From contig JANYDB010000068.1 in assembly GCA_025359985.1 (NCBI GenBank), positions 1-64,000 on the forward strand: a DNA stretch of 64,000 bases. The letters run 5' to 3'. The notes under the pieces were generated by a model. That model made no database searches, was not told where the DNA came from, and saw only the letters and a list, made by a program, of their open reading frames with translations. Source of the stretch: Burkholderiales bacterium (GTDB taxonomy: Bacteria > Pseudomonadota > Gammaproteobacteria > Burkholderiales > Usitatibacteraceae). Shown piece by piece: positions 323 through 6,464 of this stretch. The stretch's first letter is position 1; each line of letters opens with the position of its first letter. Position numbers and translations under genes: made by a program.

Positions 323-365
323 TGTGCGGTTGAAAAACGATGTTTTTTCATTGGTTTAAGTTACA

Positions 366-431
366 AAACCCTAGCACTGGCGCGGCGTTTTGGACATAAA
401 TGCCTTAAAGCGCTCTCTGGTGCTAGGGTTT
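366..431. repeat. Dispersed palindromic repeat family, copy A
   Basis: Perfect 12-bp arms aaaccctagcac / gtgctagggttt around core ggcgttttggacataaatgcc. Confidence 0.75.
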
Positions 432-560
432 GTGGATTCATTTTGTGATGGCAACCGTTTTGTTAATGCGTTAATGCGTGGGCTGATGATACTTGGTAAC
501 CGTTCGCCTAACACTGTTGTATCGCAGCTTAAGAAGTATCGTCAGGCTACGTATCAAATT

Positions 561-580
561 AATGGAGTCTGACCCCATTT
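561..580 (+). repeat. REP-like motif aatggagtctgaccccattt (left bracket of ATPase gene)
   Basis: Exact reverse complement of 3382-3401; core GGAGTCTGACCCC recurs around the RAYT gene. Confidence 0.8.
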
Positions 581-604
581 ATGCACATCCTTGAAAAATA
601 ATTA

Positions 605-3232
605 TTAAGCAGTGGCACGAGCTTTAAATTCAGCAATCCAGTTTGCCATGCCAATTACGTCTGCCGACAACTCGTCTGGTGTCGGTAAGACGATTGGAGT
701 TTCATTGGATTGCGAGTGTTCAAAGCAGGAATAACGAGTCATCAGCGTATCAATGAAATTGCAATCATTTGTCGTGATTTTTGATAATTCGCCTAGCTTT
801 CCATATGTCTGAAGTGAACGCCGAAAGCGCGATACAACATCATTCAGCAAGATTTTTTCAACACATCTTTCAATCAAAATCCGAAAATCACTGCATGTGG
901 CCTTTGCATGAATTTCATAACTATCTACATCACCATCGGTGTAGAATTTTCGGAGATTGGGTAAAATGTGATCACGAATTTTGTTGATTGCAGATTCCAA
1001 TTTATTTTCACGAATTTTCAAATCATTGACGATTCCAATGTTTGCACCTATGCGATGCAGCCCCGTTAAGGTTATTGATATCGGAGGTTGACTTTTTGCA
1101 TCAGCAGCCTTTGCATACCGTTGTACGGCATCATCTAGCAACGTCAGCAATGAAAGCCGATGAGTGAATACAATCACTTGTCGTGTTTTGGAAAGTTCAA
1201 TCAACCGTTCAACAACCTTTTCTTCGAAATCTTGATCGAGCGACGAGATAGGATCATCAAAGACAAATGGTGTTGGTTGTCCAGAACCCATCATGTCAGC
1301 AAGGAATGCAGCCAAGGATACTATTCTGGTTTCGCCTTCACTCAATATAAGGTTAGTGGCAACTGCTTTTTTTGCACCGACCAGTTTCAATTCGAATTTG
1401 ATTTTCCCTTTTCCTTCAAGAACAGAAGTCGGTTCAACTGGAATTCGCTCACCACCAAGATATTTAAGTTCATCAGAAAATCTTTTCTGATATCCAAGCG
1501 ATAATTCCTCGTCGGTCAGTTCATTCTTTTTAGTTGTAAGGGCATTCGTTTTGCACAAGGTTTCAGCACCTTCAATTTTTTTGATTGACTGCTTACGAAG
1601 AATTTCCTTTTCAATAGCTGCTCTATTTTGAGTCAGCCATTCTTTTGCTTTCCATTCGTTTAATTTCTTTTCAGCTTCTTTTCGCTTGTCGGCTTGCTGC
1701 AATTCGGTGAGTGTCTTTTCTCCCATAATGACTTGCTCTTCATATTTGGCGATTGATTTTTCAAGATCATCCCAAACGATGACATTCAATTTTCCGATTT
1801 CCGATATGCCAGTAATTAAGCCATGTCTAGCAACGATGGCATTGAACATGGCTTCACCAATCGCAGTGTCCACCTTCAATAATTCAATCTTGGTATTCCA
1901 TTCTTCCGTTTTAATCAAAGATGGAAAGGCTTCGATTTCTTCCTTGAGTAAATTTTCAGCTTTGATTGCTGAAGCCTCAAGCGAACCTTTGACAAATTTT
2001 TCAAATCCGGTCAGCCGTTCTTTCGCATGCTTATCAAGTTCTTGAAGGCACAGAACACATCGGCTTTCATCACCAATTACCGGAAAGTGGTCATCAGCAT
2101 AAGCAAGTTCGTCCGAGTATTTCCGTGCCGCTTCCCACATCAATTTCCAAGAATCTTCACCAACACCTGATAGCGATGCATTGGCAAATATTTTTTTGGC
2201 GTCCTCAGTCGCAACCTTTCGCTTATCCTTTGCATCCTTGCGAAGTGCAATTAACTGTTTGAATTTGTCGTCAGCCAATCCATTTTTCAATGTGGTAAAT
2301 TCGGTTTTGAGTTGGGTAATTCGCTGTTTGGTTTGAACAAATCCCTTGAGCTTGCCAGCAACATCGGTTTGCTGCATTAATAATTCAAGCCGACCTTTTT
2401 CTTCAACGTCTTCAGGGGTGATGACACATGCCTTATCAATTGCCAATTTCAATGTTCCATGACTTAACGAACTGATGAATGACTTGACAGTGGTTAATGC
2501 GAATTCAACGGGCAATATTGGCATTGCACTTACGAGGGCATTTTTTTGGACACCTAACGACTCGGAAACTCGATCACAAATTGCAACGAGCGCAGAAATG
2601 AATCGCATCCTACGAGGTTCATAACTCGCTTCATTTTTGCCATTGACATATGAAGCGGCTGTATGGCTATCAAAAATATGCACATGCCGTAATTCTTGCA
2701 CGGCACCTGATGGTAATGACCACTGCAAATTTTTTATTGAACCAGATACCGAGATTTTGATTTCAACAGATGGATTTACGTTGGTGGATGAAAATACATT
2801 CGGCTGTAAGTCCAATTTCATCAACGAGCCACATGCATGCTTCAATAATCGGGCATATCCAGATTTACCTGACCCGTTACCACCATACACGACATGCAAA
2901 TTTGATTGGCCGAAAGGGAGCTTGGCACCAGAAGTGATTGCATTGACACCGACGACATTATCAAGCTGTTCAATTCGCATCATTGCTGATGTCGGTGTTT
3001 GGGTAAATGAACCAGGTGGAACCGTCTTGAAGACCGTACCAGGCGTTTTCAAAGCCTCATTGGTACAAAGTGCTACCAGCACTTTCAAAGCTGCATCATC
3101 GGGTGTCTTTTGATCTTGGAGCAGGTTAGCGGCTGCTGTTTGTAACCATTGAGGTCTTCCAGATAGCCATGCCTCAAAATCCAAGAGACTATTCGGGGTT
3201 AGTTTCGGTGATGCAGCTTTTGTAGTAGTCAT
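605..3232 (-). CDS. AAA_13-type ABC ATPase with zinc-hook-like CxxC and C-terminal HEPN-like Rx5H; RloC/PrrC-like anticodon nuclease candidate
   Basis: Walker A YGGNGSGKSGYA; signature LSEGETRIVSLAAFLADM; Walker B PFVFDDPISSLD; H-loop VIVFTHR; CVLC in coiled-coil region; C-terminal RYSCFEH. ORF opens at 3277; MTTTKAASPK start at 3232 looks better. Confidence 0.7.
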   Translation of the reverse strand: MTTTKAASPKLTPNSLLDFEAWLSGRPQWLQTAAANLLQDQKTPDDAALKVLVALCTNEALKTPGTVFKTVPPGSFTQTPTSAMMRIEQLDNVVGVNAITSGAKLPFGQSNLHVVYGGNGSGKSGYARLLKHACGSLMKLDLQPNVFSSTNVNPSVEIKISVSGSIKNLQWSLPSGAVQELRHVHIFDSHTAASYVNGKNEASYEPRRMRFISALVAICDRVSESLGVQKNALVSAMPILPVEFALTTVKSFISSLSHGTLKLAIDKACVITPEDVEEKGRLELLMQQTDVAGKLKGFVQTKQRITQLKTEFTTLKNGLADDKFKQLIALRKDAKDKRKVATEDAKKIFANASLSGVGEDSWKLMWEAARKYSDELAYADDHFPVIGDESRCVLCLQELDKHAKERLTGFEKFVKGSLEASAIKAENLLKEEIEAFPSLIKTEEWNTKIELLKVDTAIGEAMFNAIVARHGLITGISEIGKLNVIVWDDLEKSIAKYEEQVIMGEKTLTELQQADKRKEAEKKLNEWKAKEWLTQNRAAIEKEILRKQSIKKIEGAETLCKTNALTTKKNELTDEELSLGYQKRFSDELKYLGGERIPVEPTSVLEGKGKIKFELKLVGAKKAVATNLILSEGETRIVSLAAFLADMMGSGQPTPFVFDDPISSLDQDFEEKVVERLIELSKTRQVIVFTHRLSLLTLLDDAVQRYAKAADAKSQPPISITLTGLHRIGANIGIVNDLKIRENKLESAINKIRDHILPNLRKFYTDGDVDSYEIHAKATCSDFRILIERCVEKILLNDVVSRFRRSLQTYGKLGELSKITTNDCNFIDTLMTRYSCFEHSQSNETPIVLPTPDELSADVIGMANWIAEFKARATA

Positions 3233-3381
3233 GTTGTGAAATTGATATCGTTCATGAGCCGAGCTTCCACATATCACGACTGTTTTGGATTAGCTGTCGG
3301 CAATATTTTCCTCTCCGATCATACCATTGGTTAACTTTCCGTATAACTGGTAGTTTTAACAGGTGCGAGAAAAAATGAAAA

Positions 3382-3401
3382 AAATGGGGTCAGACTCCAT
3401 T
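3382..3401 (-). repeat. REP-like motif, inverted copy (right bracket of ATPase gene)
   Basis: aaatggggtcagactccatt = reverse complement of 561-580. Confidence 0.8.
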
Positions 3402-3428
3402 TATGACTGTGACCCCATTTATGACTGA

Positions 3429-3494
3429 GAACAAAACAAGAACAAAACAAGAACAAAACAAAAACAAAACAAGAACAAAACAAGAACAAAACAG
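3429..3494. repeat. Tandem repeat, 6 x 11 bp (gaacaaaacaa)
   Basis: Six consecutive 11-bp units with minor substitutions, upstream of the ATPase gene. Confidence 0.9.
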
Positions 3495-3611
3495 TAATGA
3501 AAGTCTTAGCGCCGAGATATGACAGTTTTACTAAAATCTGTTTCGGATTAGGCAATACGTCATCTTGGCATCCATGAACGCGCAAAGACCAAGCCATCGA
3601 TGTTATGGGTG

Positions 3612-4079
3612 TTATTGATGTTTCGCTGCAAACTCGCGCATATAAGCCACCAACGTCTCAACGGCGACTAACGAGACCGCGTTATAAATCGAGGCTCGCA
3701 TTCCGCCAACTGCCTTATGCCCCTTCAAACCGACCAGACCGGCTACTTCTGCGCCTTGCAAGAATGCAGCGTTATGCTGCTCGTTGCGCAGGAAAAACAC
3801 GACGTTCATTTGGGATCGATCCGTTACAGCCACGTGGTTATGATAAAAACCGTTCGAGCCATCGATTGTTTGGTAGAGTAGCGCCGCTTTTGCCGCATTG
3901 ATCTTACCCATCGCGGCGACACCGCCTTGTTGCTTGAGCCATTTGAAGGTCAATCCGGCGAGATAGACTACAAATGTCGGCGGTGTGTTGAGCATCCAGT
4001 CATGCTGGGCTTGCTGGGTATAGTCGAAAACCGAGGGGGTCATGGGATGGGGATGGCCAAGCAAGTCTTCAGAAATAAA
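3612..4079 (-). pseudogene. serC: 3' fragment of phosphoserine aminotransferase (SerC)
   Basis: Translation [19 protein letters not shown]...[25 protein letters not shown]...SQMNVVFFL...[38 protein letters not shown] matches only the C-terminal part of SerC; homology stops at the REP-like motif. Confidence 0.8.
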
Positions 4080-4096
4080 TGAAGTCAGACTCCATT
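4079..4096 (-). repeat. REP-like motif (gaagtcagactccatt), left end of RAYT unit
   Basis: Inverted relative to the copy at 4891-4914; contains the RAYT stop codon and abuts the serC breakpoint. Confidence 0.7.
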
Positions 4097-4822
4097 TTCC
4101 CTCTTTTCGCTCTTCAATTCATGCACACGCGGCCTCCCCCGCCCTTTCGACACTGCACGTCGCGCCGACAATGCCTCAATCTCGGCTGCAAATCGGTCGC
4201 TACCCAGCGCCCAACCCTTGTTGGTCGCATCGCGGATCGTTTTCAGTTCATCTTCCGTCGTGATGGTCTTAAACGTCTTAAACAGTTGCCGGTAAGCCAA
4301 ACGCCGGTCTTCGTCTGTGGCCGCCAGCGCCAAATACTGCTGATGCGGTTCCAGCCAGACGCTGTTTGCGCCCGCGTCTCCATCCGCATAACGGCGAAAG
4401 CTCGACCACGCATAGGCACGGGGGTGCGCGACCATGTTGGCGCGTACCGGGTTCATGTCGATGTAGTGCATCAGTTTCAACAAGTAACTTTCGCTATCCA
4501 CCACGGTGGCGCGGTAGCGGCCTTCCCACAGGGTGCCGGTGCGTTTATAGGTGTCGTTAAAATATTGAACATAGCGCCGCCCGACCGATTGCAGCGTTTT
4601 GCCGATGCTGTCGGCATACAGTGGGCTTGCTAATAGGTGAATGTGATTAGTCATCAACACATAACCATGAATCGCCAGGCCAAACCGCCCGGCTGCTTCG
4701 ACTAATGCATCGCGAAAGAACTGATAGTCCGCCTCACGAGCGAAAACGGTCTGTCGGTTGTTACCGCGCTGAATAATATGCTGCGGTTGGCCGGGGATAG
4801 CAAAACGTGGAAGACGGGCCAT
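4085..4822 (-). mobile_element. REP-associated tyrosine transposase (RAYT / TnpA_REP, Y1 family)
   Basis: MARLPRFAIPGQPQHIIQRGNNRQ, HUH motif NHIHLL, catalytic-Tyr region MHYIDMNPVRANMV, ARAYAWSSF. Confidence 0.9.
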
Positions 4823-4890
4823 GGGTACGTTGTTGACAAGAATAAAAAGTCGTTGGGATGATTGTGACTATGATTAGTGGTAACTATTTA

Positions 4891-4914
4891 TATCAAATTA
4901 ATGGAGTCTGACCC
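4891..4914 (+). repeat. REP-like motif tatcaaattaatggagtctgaccc
   Basis: 24-bp identical direct repeat of 552-575. Confidence 0.8.
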
Positions 4915-5000
4915 TGCGGTTTCCTCTATATGTGCACTATTAACGTGAGACTTGTTAACTAATCGCATGATTCATAAGGACTATTCGAGGGGATACCTCA

Positions 5001-5090
5001 GAGTCTGACCCCATTTTTCATTTTTTTAAAATTAATGGAGTCTGACCCCATTTTTTCCTTTTCCATTTTTTCCTTTTTTTATGACCCCAT
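5001..5090 (+). repeat. Cluster of REP-like motif copies (gagtctgacccc, aatggagtctgacccc, partial atgaccccat)
   Basis: Copies at 5001-5014, 5031-5052 and a partial copy at 5081-5090, separated by T-rich spacer. Confidence 0.7.
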
Positions 5091-5605
5091 TTTTTTACTC
5101 GAGTTGCTATTGAACTGTCCTGGAGCCAAATAGCTGCACCCCGTGCGCAATATGACCCCGTGCGCAATACAAATTCGTTTCAATTTCCCCACCTCTCAAT
5201 ATCGACATCTATTACAACTTAAAGCTCCAAATGGCAAGTCATTTGCCAACGCCGCATAATTCCACGTCGCAGCAGGCAACATACTTCCAAAATTTGCAAC
5301 TAGCGAAATGGGCCAACGTCAATTGTTTTGCGAAACTATGCGCCCTGCCCCGTTTATTGCTGACCCGTTTAGTGAACCACGACGCGAAGGCGCACCGCGG
5401 CGATTTTTGCCTAGACGCGGTTTTTGGAAATGCGGATTGCAATTGCATGAGGTGAAGCATAGCAGGAGAGATGGATTTTTATTCAGCTACCGATTCCGTC
5501 AAGGGCGCGCGCAGCGCGGCACAGCAAACCCTTGTCCAACGGGGATTTCCTTCGGTCACGGCCACGAAGAGAACACGCTCAGACCTGCGCGCGAATCAAA
5601 TGCAC

Positions 5606-5671
5606 AAACTCTAGCACTGGTGGGCTTCATGGCGGCATTTTGGCCCAAACGCCGCACCAATACGGTTGTTT
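5606..5671. repeat. Dispersed palindromic repeat family, copy B
   Basis: aaactctagcactggt...ggcattttggcccaaacgccgcaccaatacggttgttt; abuts the yaeQ stop codon. Confidence 0.55.
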
Positions 5672-6215
5672 AAACCGCTGATTTGTAAGTAACCAACTCC
5701 ACCGAAACCATTTCTGCATCGCTTGAAAACATCATCGCGCCATCCTGAATGCTGGCGCTAAATGACATATTGCGTTCGGCTAATTTGGCGAGGGCTTTGC
5801 TGGTTTCTTGCGGCACGTTGTACACCGTCAAATTATTCAATCTCGCGACAAGTGATTCGTTTTGCTTCCACCACATCTCGGCAGCGCTGCCGCCGTAGGT
5901 GTAGAGCGTGACCGCGGTTGAGCGTCCGCAGGCTTTGCGTAACCATTTCTCGTCTGGCAGGCCGACATCGATCCAATCCTGAATCGCACCGGTAAAATCT
6001 TTGCGCCACAGGGTGGGCTCATGATCGGTGGAAATGCCTTTGGCGAATTCCAGATATTCCTCGGCATGTAGTGCAAACGCAATCACCCGCACCATCATGC
6101 GCTCGTCGGTTTCGGAGGGATGCCGCGCTATGGTCAGCTCATGCGTCGCATAATAGCCGCGATCCATATCGGAGACGGCCAGCTCGGCTTTAAAGATCGT
6201 GGATTTAATCGCCAT
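5670..6215 (-). CDS. yaeQ: YaeQ family protein
   Basis: MAIKSTIFKAELAVSDMDRGYYATHELTIARHPSETDERMMVR...DGAMMFSSDAEMVSVEL. Confidence 0.9.
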   Translation of the reverse strand: MAIKSTIFKAELAVSDMDRGYYATHELTIARHPSETDERMMVRVIAFALHAEEYLEFAKGISTDHEPTLWRKDFTGAIQDWIDVGLPDEKWLRKACGRSTAVTLYTYGGSAAEMWWKQNESLVARLNNLTVYNVPQETSKALAKLAERNMSFSASIQDGAMMFSSDAEMVSVELVTYKSAV

Positions 6216-6236
6216 GAGATTTTCTTGATTTCCTTA

Positions 6237-6464
6237 TTAACTACCCTTCGGCGCCAACACAAAAATCCTCGCGCCTTGATAGCGCACGACCTGTCCCGCC
6301 CGAATCTTGTTGCGTTTGCGCGATTCAGGTTTGCCATCCACGGTGACTAAACCCTGCACCACCAGTGCCGAGCCGCCGCCGCCGCTTGCGGCAAAGCCGG
6401 CCAACTTCAGTAAATGATTTAGCTCAATATATTCTTCGGTGAGGTAATACTCGACATCGTTCAT
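6237..6464 (-). CDS. S4-domain RNA-binding protein (YbcJ-like)
   Basis: Short S4 domain: YIELNHLLKLAGFAASGGGGSALVVQGLVTVDGKPESRKRNKIRAGQVV. Confidence 0.85.
   Translation of the reverse strand: MNDVEYYLTEEYIELNHLLKLAGFAASGGGGSALVVQGLVTVDGKPESRKRNKIRAGQVVRYQGARIFVLAPKGS

Follow-up and report, generated by a model that had tools for sequence, protein, structure and literature searches.

Has the ATPase gene at this locus been carried as cargo by a neighboring RAYT transposase, or does it lie between repeats for another reason? In the window (the whole stretch of DNA that was analyzed, 64,000 nucleotides), the 20-bp motif AATGGAGTCTGACCCCATTT was matched exactly at 561-580 on the plus strand and at 3382-3401 on the minus strand. 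The two copies are inverted relative to each other, and the ATPase was the only gene-like open reading frame between them. The motif match and the list of reading frames therefore bore out this part of the initial annotation, which had further proposed that the ATPase was a cargo unit mobilized by the RAYT or was captured by recombination through the repeats. Below, M+ denotes AATGGAGTCTGACCCCATTT on the plus strand, and M- denotes its reverse complement. The features of the locus were as follows.

220-584, no strand assigned: left flank shared at ~97% identity with the Rhizobacter MAG contig L060, with the motif at its right end.
561-580, plus strand: left motif copy (M+), exact, about 25 bp past the ATPase stop codon.
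605-3277, minus strand: intact ATPase gene of the PADLOC PDC-S06 family, 890 aa as called, assigned by profile match and homolog alignment.
3382-3401, minus strand: right motif copy (M-), exact, interpreted as the outermost member, on the left, of the RAYT array.
3404-3416, plus strand: degenerate motif copy (M+) with 3 mismatches, which pairs with 3382-3401 as a small M-/M+ dimer.
3612-4064, minus strand: 3' fragment of serC (phosphoserine aminotransferase) with the 5' part missing, matching TIGR01364 at model positions 210-358.
4077-4093, minus strand: motif copy (M-, 13-mer at 4081) with 2 mismatches, overlapping the RAYT stop codon.
4085-4822, minus strand: RAYT gene, encoding a RAYT/TIRYT-type Y1 (HUH) transposase of 245 aa, matched by PF01797 and by NF047646 below its cut-off.
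4899-4915, plus strand: motif copy (M+, 13-mer at 4903) with 1 mismatch, upstream of the RAYT gene.
5000-5012, plus strand: motif copy (M+) with 1 mismatch.
5034-5053, plus strand: motif copy (M+, 13-mer at 5037), exact.

The motif was clearly enriched at this locus and in its genome. With up to 2 mismatches, the 13-mer GGAGTCTGACCCC matched 6 times across the 64-kb window, where 0.51 matches would be expected; all 6 were confined to 564-5049. A 17-mer form, likewise with up to 2 mismatches, showed 8 copies in the whole 3.43-Mb genome, compared with 0 for the reversed control. Bracketing by chance was rejected on these window and genome counts. The initial annotation had raised genome-wide abundance as a possible explanation of the bracket; the repeat is indeed multicopy and enriched, but because the genome holds only 8 copies, repeats on both sides of a gene are not trivially expected from density, and clustering near the RAYT gene must be invoked. 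The exact 20-mer was present in 49 stretches of the genome collection, ranging from beta- and gammaproteobacteria to Gemmatimonadaceae, Nitrospirae, and others, with copy numbers that rose to 53 in one genome of the Gemmatimonadaceae and to 27 in one of the Burkholderiaceae. Among 274 genomes of the class, the exact motif was found in its own genome only. The motif, the RAYT, and the ATPase were also sought in viral contigs, and none was found. Among the papers listed by a literature search, no longer form of the motif appeared, only the short TGGGGTCAG in unrelated work. These results document the GGGGTCAGACTCC repeats as a palindromic family with members in several phyla. A short tandem repeat of AACAAAACAAG-like units was also observed at 3430-3492, adjoining the right motif.

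The shape of the motif affects how the bracket should be read. When the 21-mer AAATGGGGTCAGACTCCATTT is set against its reverse complement, only 3 positions disagree, one of which is the unpaired center, and the near-palindrome is laid out as AAATGGGGTC-A-GACTCCATTT. Self-complementarity as good as this was found in just 2 of 20,000 random 21-mers from the window. Because the motif itself is nearly palindromic, any two copies are approximately inverted repeats of each other, and the label "inverted repeat" is therefore little evidence that two copies delimit a unit. Hairpin folding was unequal between the strands of the motif, at -5.0 versus -2.9 kcal/mol.

The initial annotation had also placed the motif around the RAYT gene, and this held, with copies at 4081 (minus, 2 mismatches), 4903 (plus, 1 mismatch), 5000 (plus, 1 mismatch), and 5037 (plus, 0 mismatches). 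From 3382 to 5053, the order was M-, M-, RAYT, M+, M+, M+, and the inverted copies at 4081 and 4903 that immediately flank the gene belong to the repeat dispersed in 8 copies through the genome. TATCAAATTAATGGAGTCTGACCC was common to the 4899-4915 copy and the left bracket. The protein carries a Y1_Tnp domain (PF01797, 44.8 bits), the only domain found by Pfam, with NHIHLL and YIDMNP corresponding to the HUH and Y---NP motifs. It scored 64 bits against NCBIfam REP_Tyr_transpos (NF047646), under the curated cut-off of 80, and showed no match to solved structures. The gene is the sole near-full-length close copy of its type in the genome. RAYT relatives were located inside M-...M+ at L046 (48% identity), L073 (47%), and a Gemmatimonadaceae locus, L186 (52%), and beside M+ copies at L045 (76%) and L041 (37%). 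This recurrent placement in other lineages indicates, on the evidence of gene context, that the motif is the cognate repeat of this transposase family. Accordingly, the most natural reading of the right bracket at 3382 is that it is the outermost repeat, on the left, of the array belonging to the RAYT.

We then compared the orientation of motif pairs. Adjacent pairs within 150 bp, taken across 49 contigs, had the order M-/M+ in 21 cases, M+/M+ in 7, M-/M- in 5, and M+/M- in 0, and exact pairs within 3 kb in five whole genomes were M-/M+ in 20 cases and M+/M- in 0. Four M-/M+ dimers of the Burkholderiaceae genome formed long, REPIN-like hairpins when folded. In this genome (FW300_bin.58; L037, L051, L057, and L076), the dimers had a near-constant spacing of 62 to 63 bp, and their spacer sequences were unrelated. 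The ATPase bracket has the order M+...M-, the reverse of the RAYT-bracketing and dimer pairs, and a composite transposon was rejected on this orientation. Elsewhere, the M+...M- order was found only between separate elements, as on L066 from a Deltaproteobacteria bin. There, a search for other genes within inverted motif copies, as the initial annotation had advised, recovered housekeeping genes: uvrB, uvrC, and hflX (names assigned from their sequences) each lie within M+...gene...M-, with spans of 1.7 to 2.0 kb. These brackets arise because every intergenic space in this region holds a dimer, successive M-/M+ dimers filling the spaces around the three genes from 337 to 6397. Since uvrB, uvrC, and hflX are core genes, M+...M- bracketing is no sign of a mobile unit. 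For such loci in this repeat family, M-...M+ can be taken as the arrangement around a transposase or in dimers, and M+...M- as the arrangement between separate elements, even around housekeeping genes.

The idea that the ATPase and its two terminal repeats form a non-autonomous cargo unit mobilized by the RAYT has to be judged against this rule. Exact 20-bp copies on both sides, a RAYT gene 0.7 kb away, and an ATPase that was not found in 12 congeners all agree with it. However, the bracket is oriented opposite to all RAYT-bracketing and dimer pairs, core genes are bracketed alike in L066, the genome holds a single ATPase copy, and five homolog loci on plasmids lack flanking motifs. In addition, PMC6006769 describes REPtrons as elements that do not move as a unit. 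We consider mobilization as a RAYT cargo extremely unlikely, and the tempting claim of RAYT-borne defense cargo was removed as unsupported.

The ATPase itself is a good match to a defense family. Residues 33-888 aligned with positions 7-860 of the 862-position PADLOC model PDC-S06 (PDLC04893) at 1049.6 bits, which agrees with the earlier view of the gene as a defense gene, at the level of a candidate. An alignment of 9 homologs places the probable true start at the ATG near 3235. These 9 homologs conserve Walker A, CVLC, the SEGE signature, and DDPISSLD (or DDPVSSLD), together with R-x3-E and H at the C terminus. Pfam AAA_13 (PF13166) scored 27.8 bits, below its cut-off of 36, and comparison with solved structures gave weak matches to the ABC-ATPase core only. 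Judged from the conserved residues, the protein probably works in the way of RloC/PrrC, as a sensor ATPase of SMC/RecN-like type in which the CxxC resembles a zinc hook and the R...E...H at the C terminus resembles an RNase site. No further defense genes were recognized in the first 9 kb of the window.

In 12 congeners, no ATPase was detected apart from one weak match to the ATPase core, and just 2 of 273 other genomes of the class had a strong homolog, at 29% identity. Homologs of ~42 to 44% identity were located on plasmids of Paraburkholderia, Pseudomonas, Aeromonas, and Moellerella. No flanking motif was seen at the five plasmid homolog loci when 6 kb on each side was read; a lone two-mismatch motif match on L132 lies inside the ATPase homolog gene. 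A second ATPase copy was not found in the own genome, nor was the ATPase found in phage records. We regard the gene as a candidate for phage defense that was acquired horizontally.

The left flank of the ATPase showed how the left repeat behaves in other genomes. The left motif and about 360 bp of flank recur in the Rhizobacter MAG contig L060, where a Sel1-repeat gene comes next and the ATPase is absent, and the window diverges abruptly from L060 after 584. The congener contig G011:C21 matches 431-575 at 93% and has an HTH gene next, again without the ATPase; G304:C33 matches 135-584 of the window. The presence of this flank and motif elsewhere without the ATPase shows that the ATPase and the left repeat are independent features. 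Moreover, the shared flank ends 4 bp past the motif in L060 and within it in G011, which marks the motif as a real junction and not a random neighbor. In these sequences, the left motif is a site where unrelated DNA has joined, and recombination at this site is possible. The 430-600 flank had no match in plasmids. Comparison with an empty site, which the initial annotation had called for, succeeded on one side: the left flank with its motif was seen without the ATPase in L060 and G011, but the right flank was not found in congeners. Beyond 3402, only the serC fragment and RAYT-like stretches were matched in congeners, and 3402-3600 was found in no genome compared. A clean empty site is therefore not reconstructable.

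Some further observations concern this flank and its relatives. Positions 1-220 of the window matched contig C32 of G011 at 99.5 to 100% identity, against 77 to 82% for the core genes of these genomes; the match reflects either a binning artifact or RHS-related DNA that was exchanged recently. A repeat of ~67 bp at 365-431, with the inverted ends CCCTAGCAC...GTGCTAGGG, had many matches in nearly all congeners and probably represents a MITE or REP-like family that is specific to the genus and has no relation to the RAYT motif. In G011, yaeQ is flanked by smpB and TonB; in the own genome, smpB is on contig C103 with no TonB homolog beside it.

These joins raise the possibility that recombination or illegitimate joining brought in the ATPase at the existing left repeat, which would have acted as a junction hotspot with no defined unit being mobilized. 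The flank 220-584 with its motif is joined to the ATPase here and to a Sel1-repeat gene in L060, and its 431-575 part to an HTH gene in G011; the near-identical RHS-related DNA farther left (1-220) is also consistent with recent exchange across genomes. However, the right flank (3402-3600) has no counterpart in any genome, and the compared genomes are fragmented drafts or MAGs, in which joins at repeats can be artifacts. Of the earlier suggestion of capture through the repeats, the left motif as a junction with unrelated genes in two genomes has stood, and the notion of two motifs delimiting a unit has not. We regard capture at the left repeat as a reasonable possibility that falls short of probable. 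It is compatible with our main explanation, for which it would supply the arrival step.

Another explanation for the left copy is that it has been kept for a function, as a transcript-end hairpin of the ATPase. Its position about 25 bp beyond the stop codon fits this function, and the better-folding strand of the left copy, with DNA parameters, is the ATPase-sense strand (-4.0 versus -1.9 kcal/mol). REPs are reported in PMC3733652 to lie mostly downstream of coding regions, which also agrees with such a role. Because the left copy also adjoins unrelated genes, retention for this function seems unlikely.

Motif copies were also found next to truncated genes. The serC fragment ends a few base pairs from the motif at 4077, and it is closer to the serC of G011 (78%) than to the second serC match in its own genome (71%). 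On contig C129 of the own genome (L006, 591-1526), putA is truncated and its reading frame ends within the motif; on C37 (end of L001), an IS66-like transposase tail, identified by eye from the translation, abuts the motif. In G011 C61 (L009), an RHS gene is truncated at the motif. Since the genomes are draft assemblies, such abutment may be real or an assembly artifact. Because motif copies abut truncated genes, one can imagine that RAYT/TIRYT repeat ends are junctions for one-ended or imprecise transposition, with outside DNA joined to the M+ end. Neighbor genes, including the defense ATPase, would thereby be collected, and the truncated serC, putA, IS66, and RHS genes would be left at the joins. 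We consider this account very unlikely; the junction pattern at the repeats is nevertheless documented here and is amenable to long-read data.

The explanation that we strongly favor is that the locus holds two independent neighbors. The RAYT/TIRYT gene lies in its own repeat array, the acquired PDC-S06 ATPase lies between the 3382 repeat of this array and the solitary repeat at 561, and the bracket is very probably a by-product of repeat placement. This explanation draws on what was observed of motif identity, the orientation rule, the RAYT association in several lineages, the housekeeping brackets, and the left motif without the ATPase elsewhere. As a mechanism, the repeat, single-stranded and folded into a hairpin, is presumably the substrate of the RAYT, which would generate M-...M+ dimers, preferentially near its own gene. 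In this explanation, repeats pile up in the intergenic space on either side of the ATPase, and the gene is bracketed because of this accumulation and not as a unit with repeat ends. Recombination at the left repeat, or insertion there, may have brought in the ATPase. Overall, the locus is an ordinary RAYT/TIRYT array beside a horizontally acquired defense candidate.

Finally, we compared the two neighbors with known systems. The locus shares with the RAYT/REPtrons with GTAG REPs (Nunvar et al. 2010, PMC2817692) inverted palindromic repeats around the gene, repeats dispersed in the genome and clustered by the gene, and the HUH and Y---NP motifs. It differs from them in lacking a GT[AG]G foot and in its REP_Tyr_transpos score below the cut-off; GTAG and GTGG were looked for at the flanks of the exact copies in the own genome and were absent. 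The repeats of TIRYTs have instead the consensus GGGGWSAS (PMC3733652; also PMC6006769). GGGGTCAG, which fits this consensus, was present in every exact motif copy, and the site was degenerate in the two copies nearest the RAYT gene (GAAGTCAG at 4081 and AGGGTCAG at 4903). As in the TIRYT/TIRtron system (Di Nocera et al. 2013, PMC3733652), a RAYT-superfamily Y1 HUH transposase lies between GGGGWSAS inverted repeats, and the repeats occur as singles, dimers, and clusters; in contrast to that system, the repeat here is a near-perfect palindrome. The system is probably subclass 2.1 of Quentin et al. 2018, whose TIRYTs have a C-terminal helix-turn-helix-like domain (PMC6006769). The FW300_bin.58 dimers differ from typical REPIN families in their unrelated spacers. 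The ATPase resembles the RloC/PrrC anticodon nucleases in its ABC-type ATPase, mid-region CxxC, and C-terminal R-x3-E and H. These residues would fit the RloC/PrrC design, in which a zinc hook and a ribonuclease tail accompany the sensor ATPase; we take this as a likeness rather than membership, and the R-to-H spacing of the protein is presumably unlike that of PrrC. With PDC-S06 of PADLOC, the match extends over the full length, with no notable difference.
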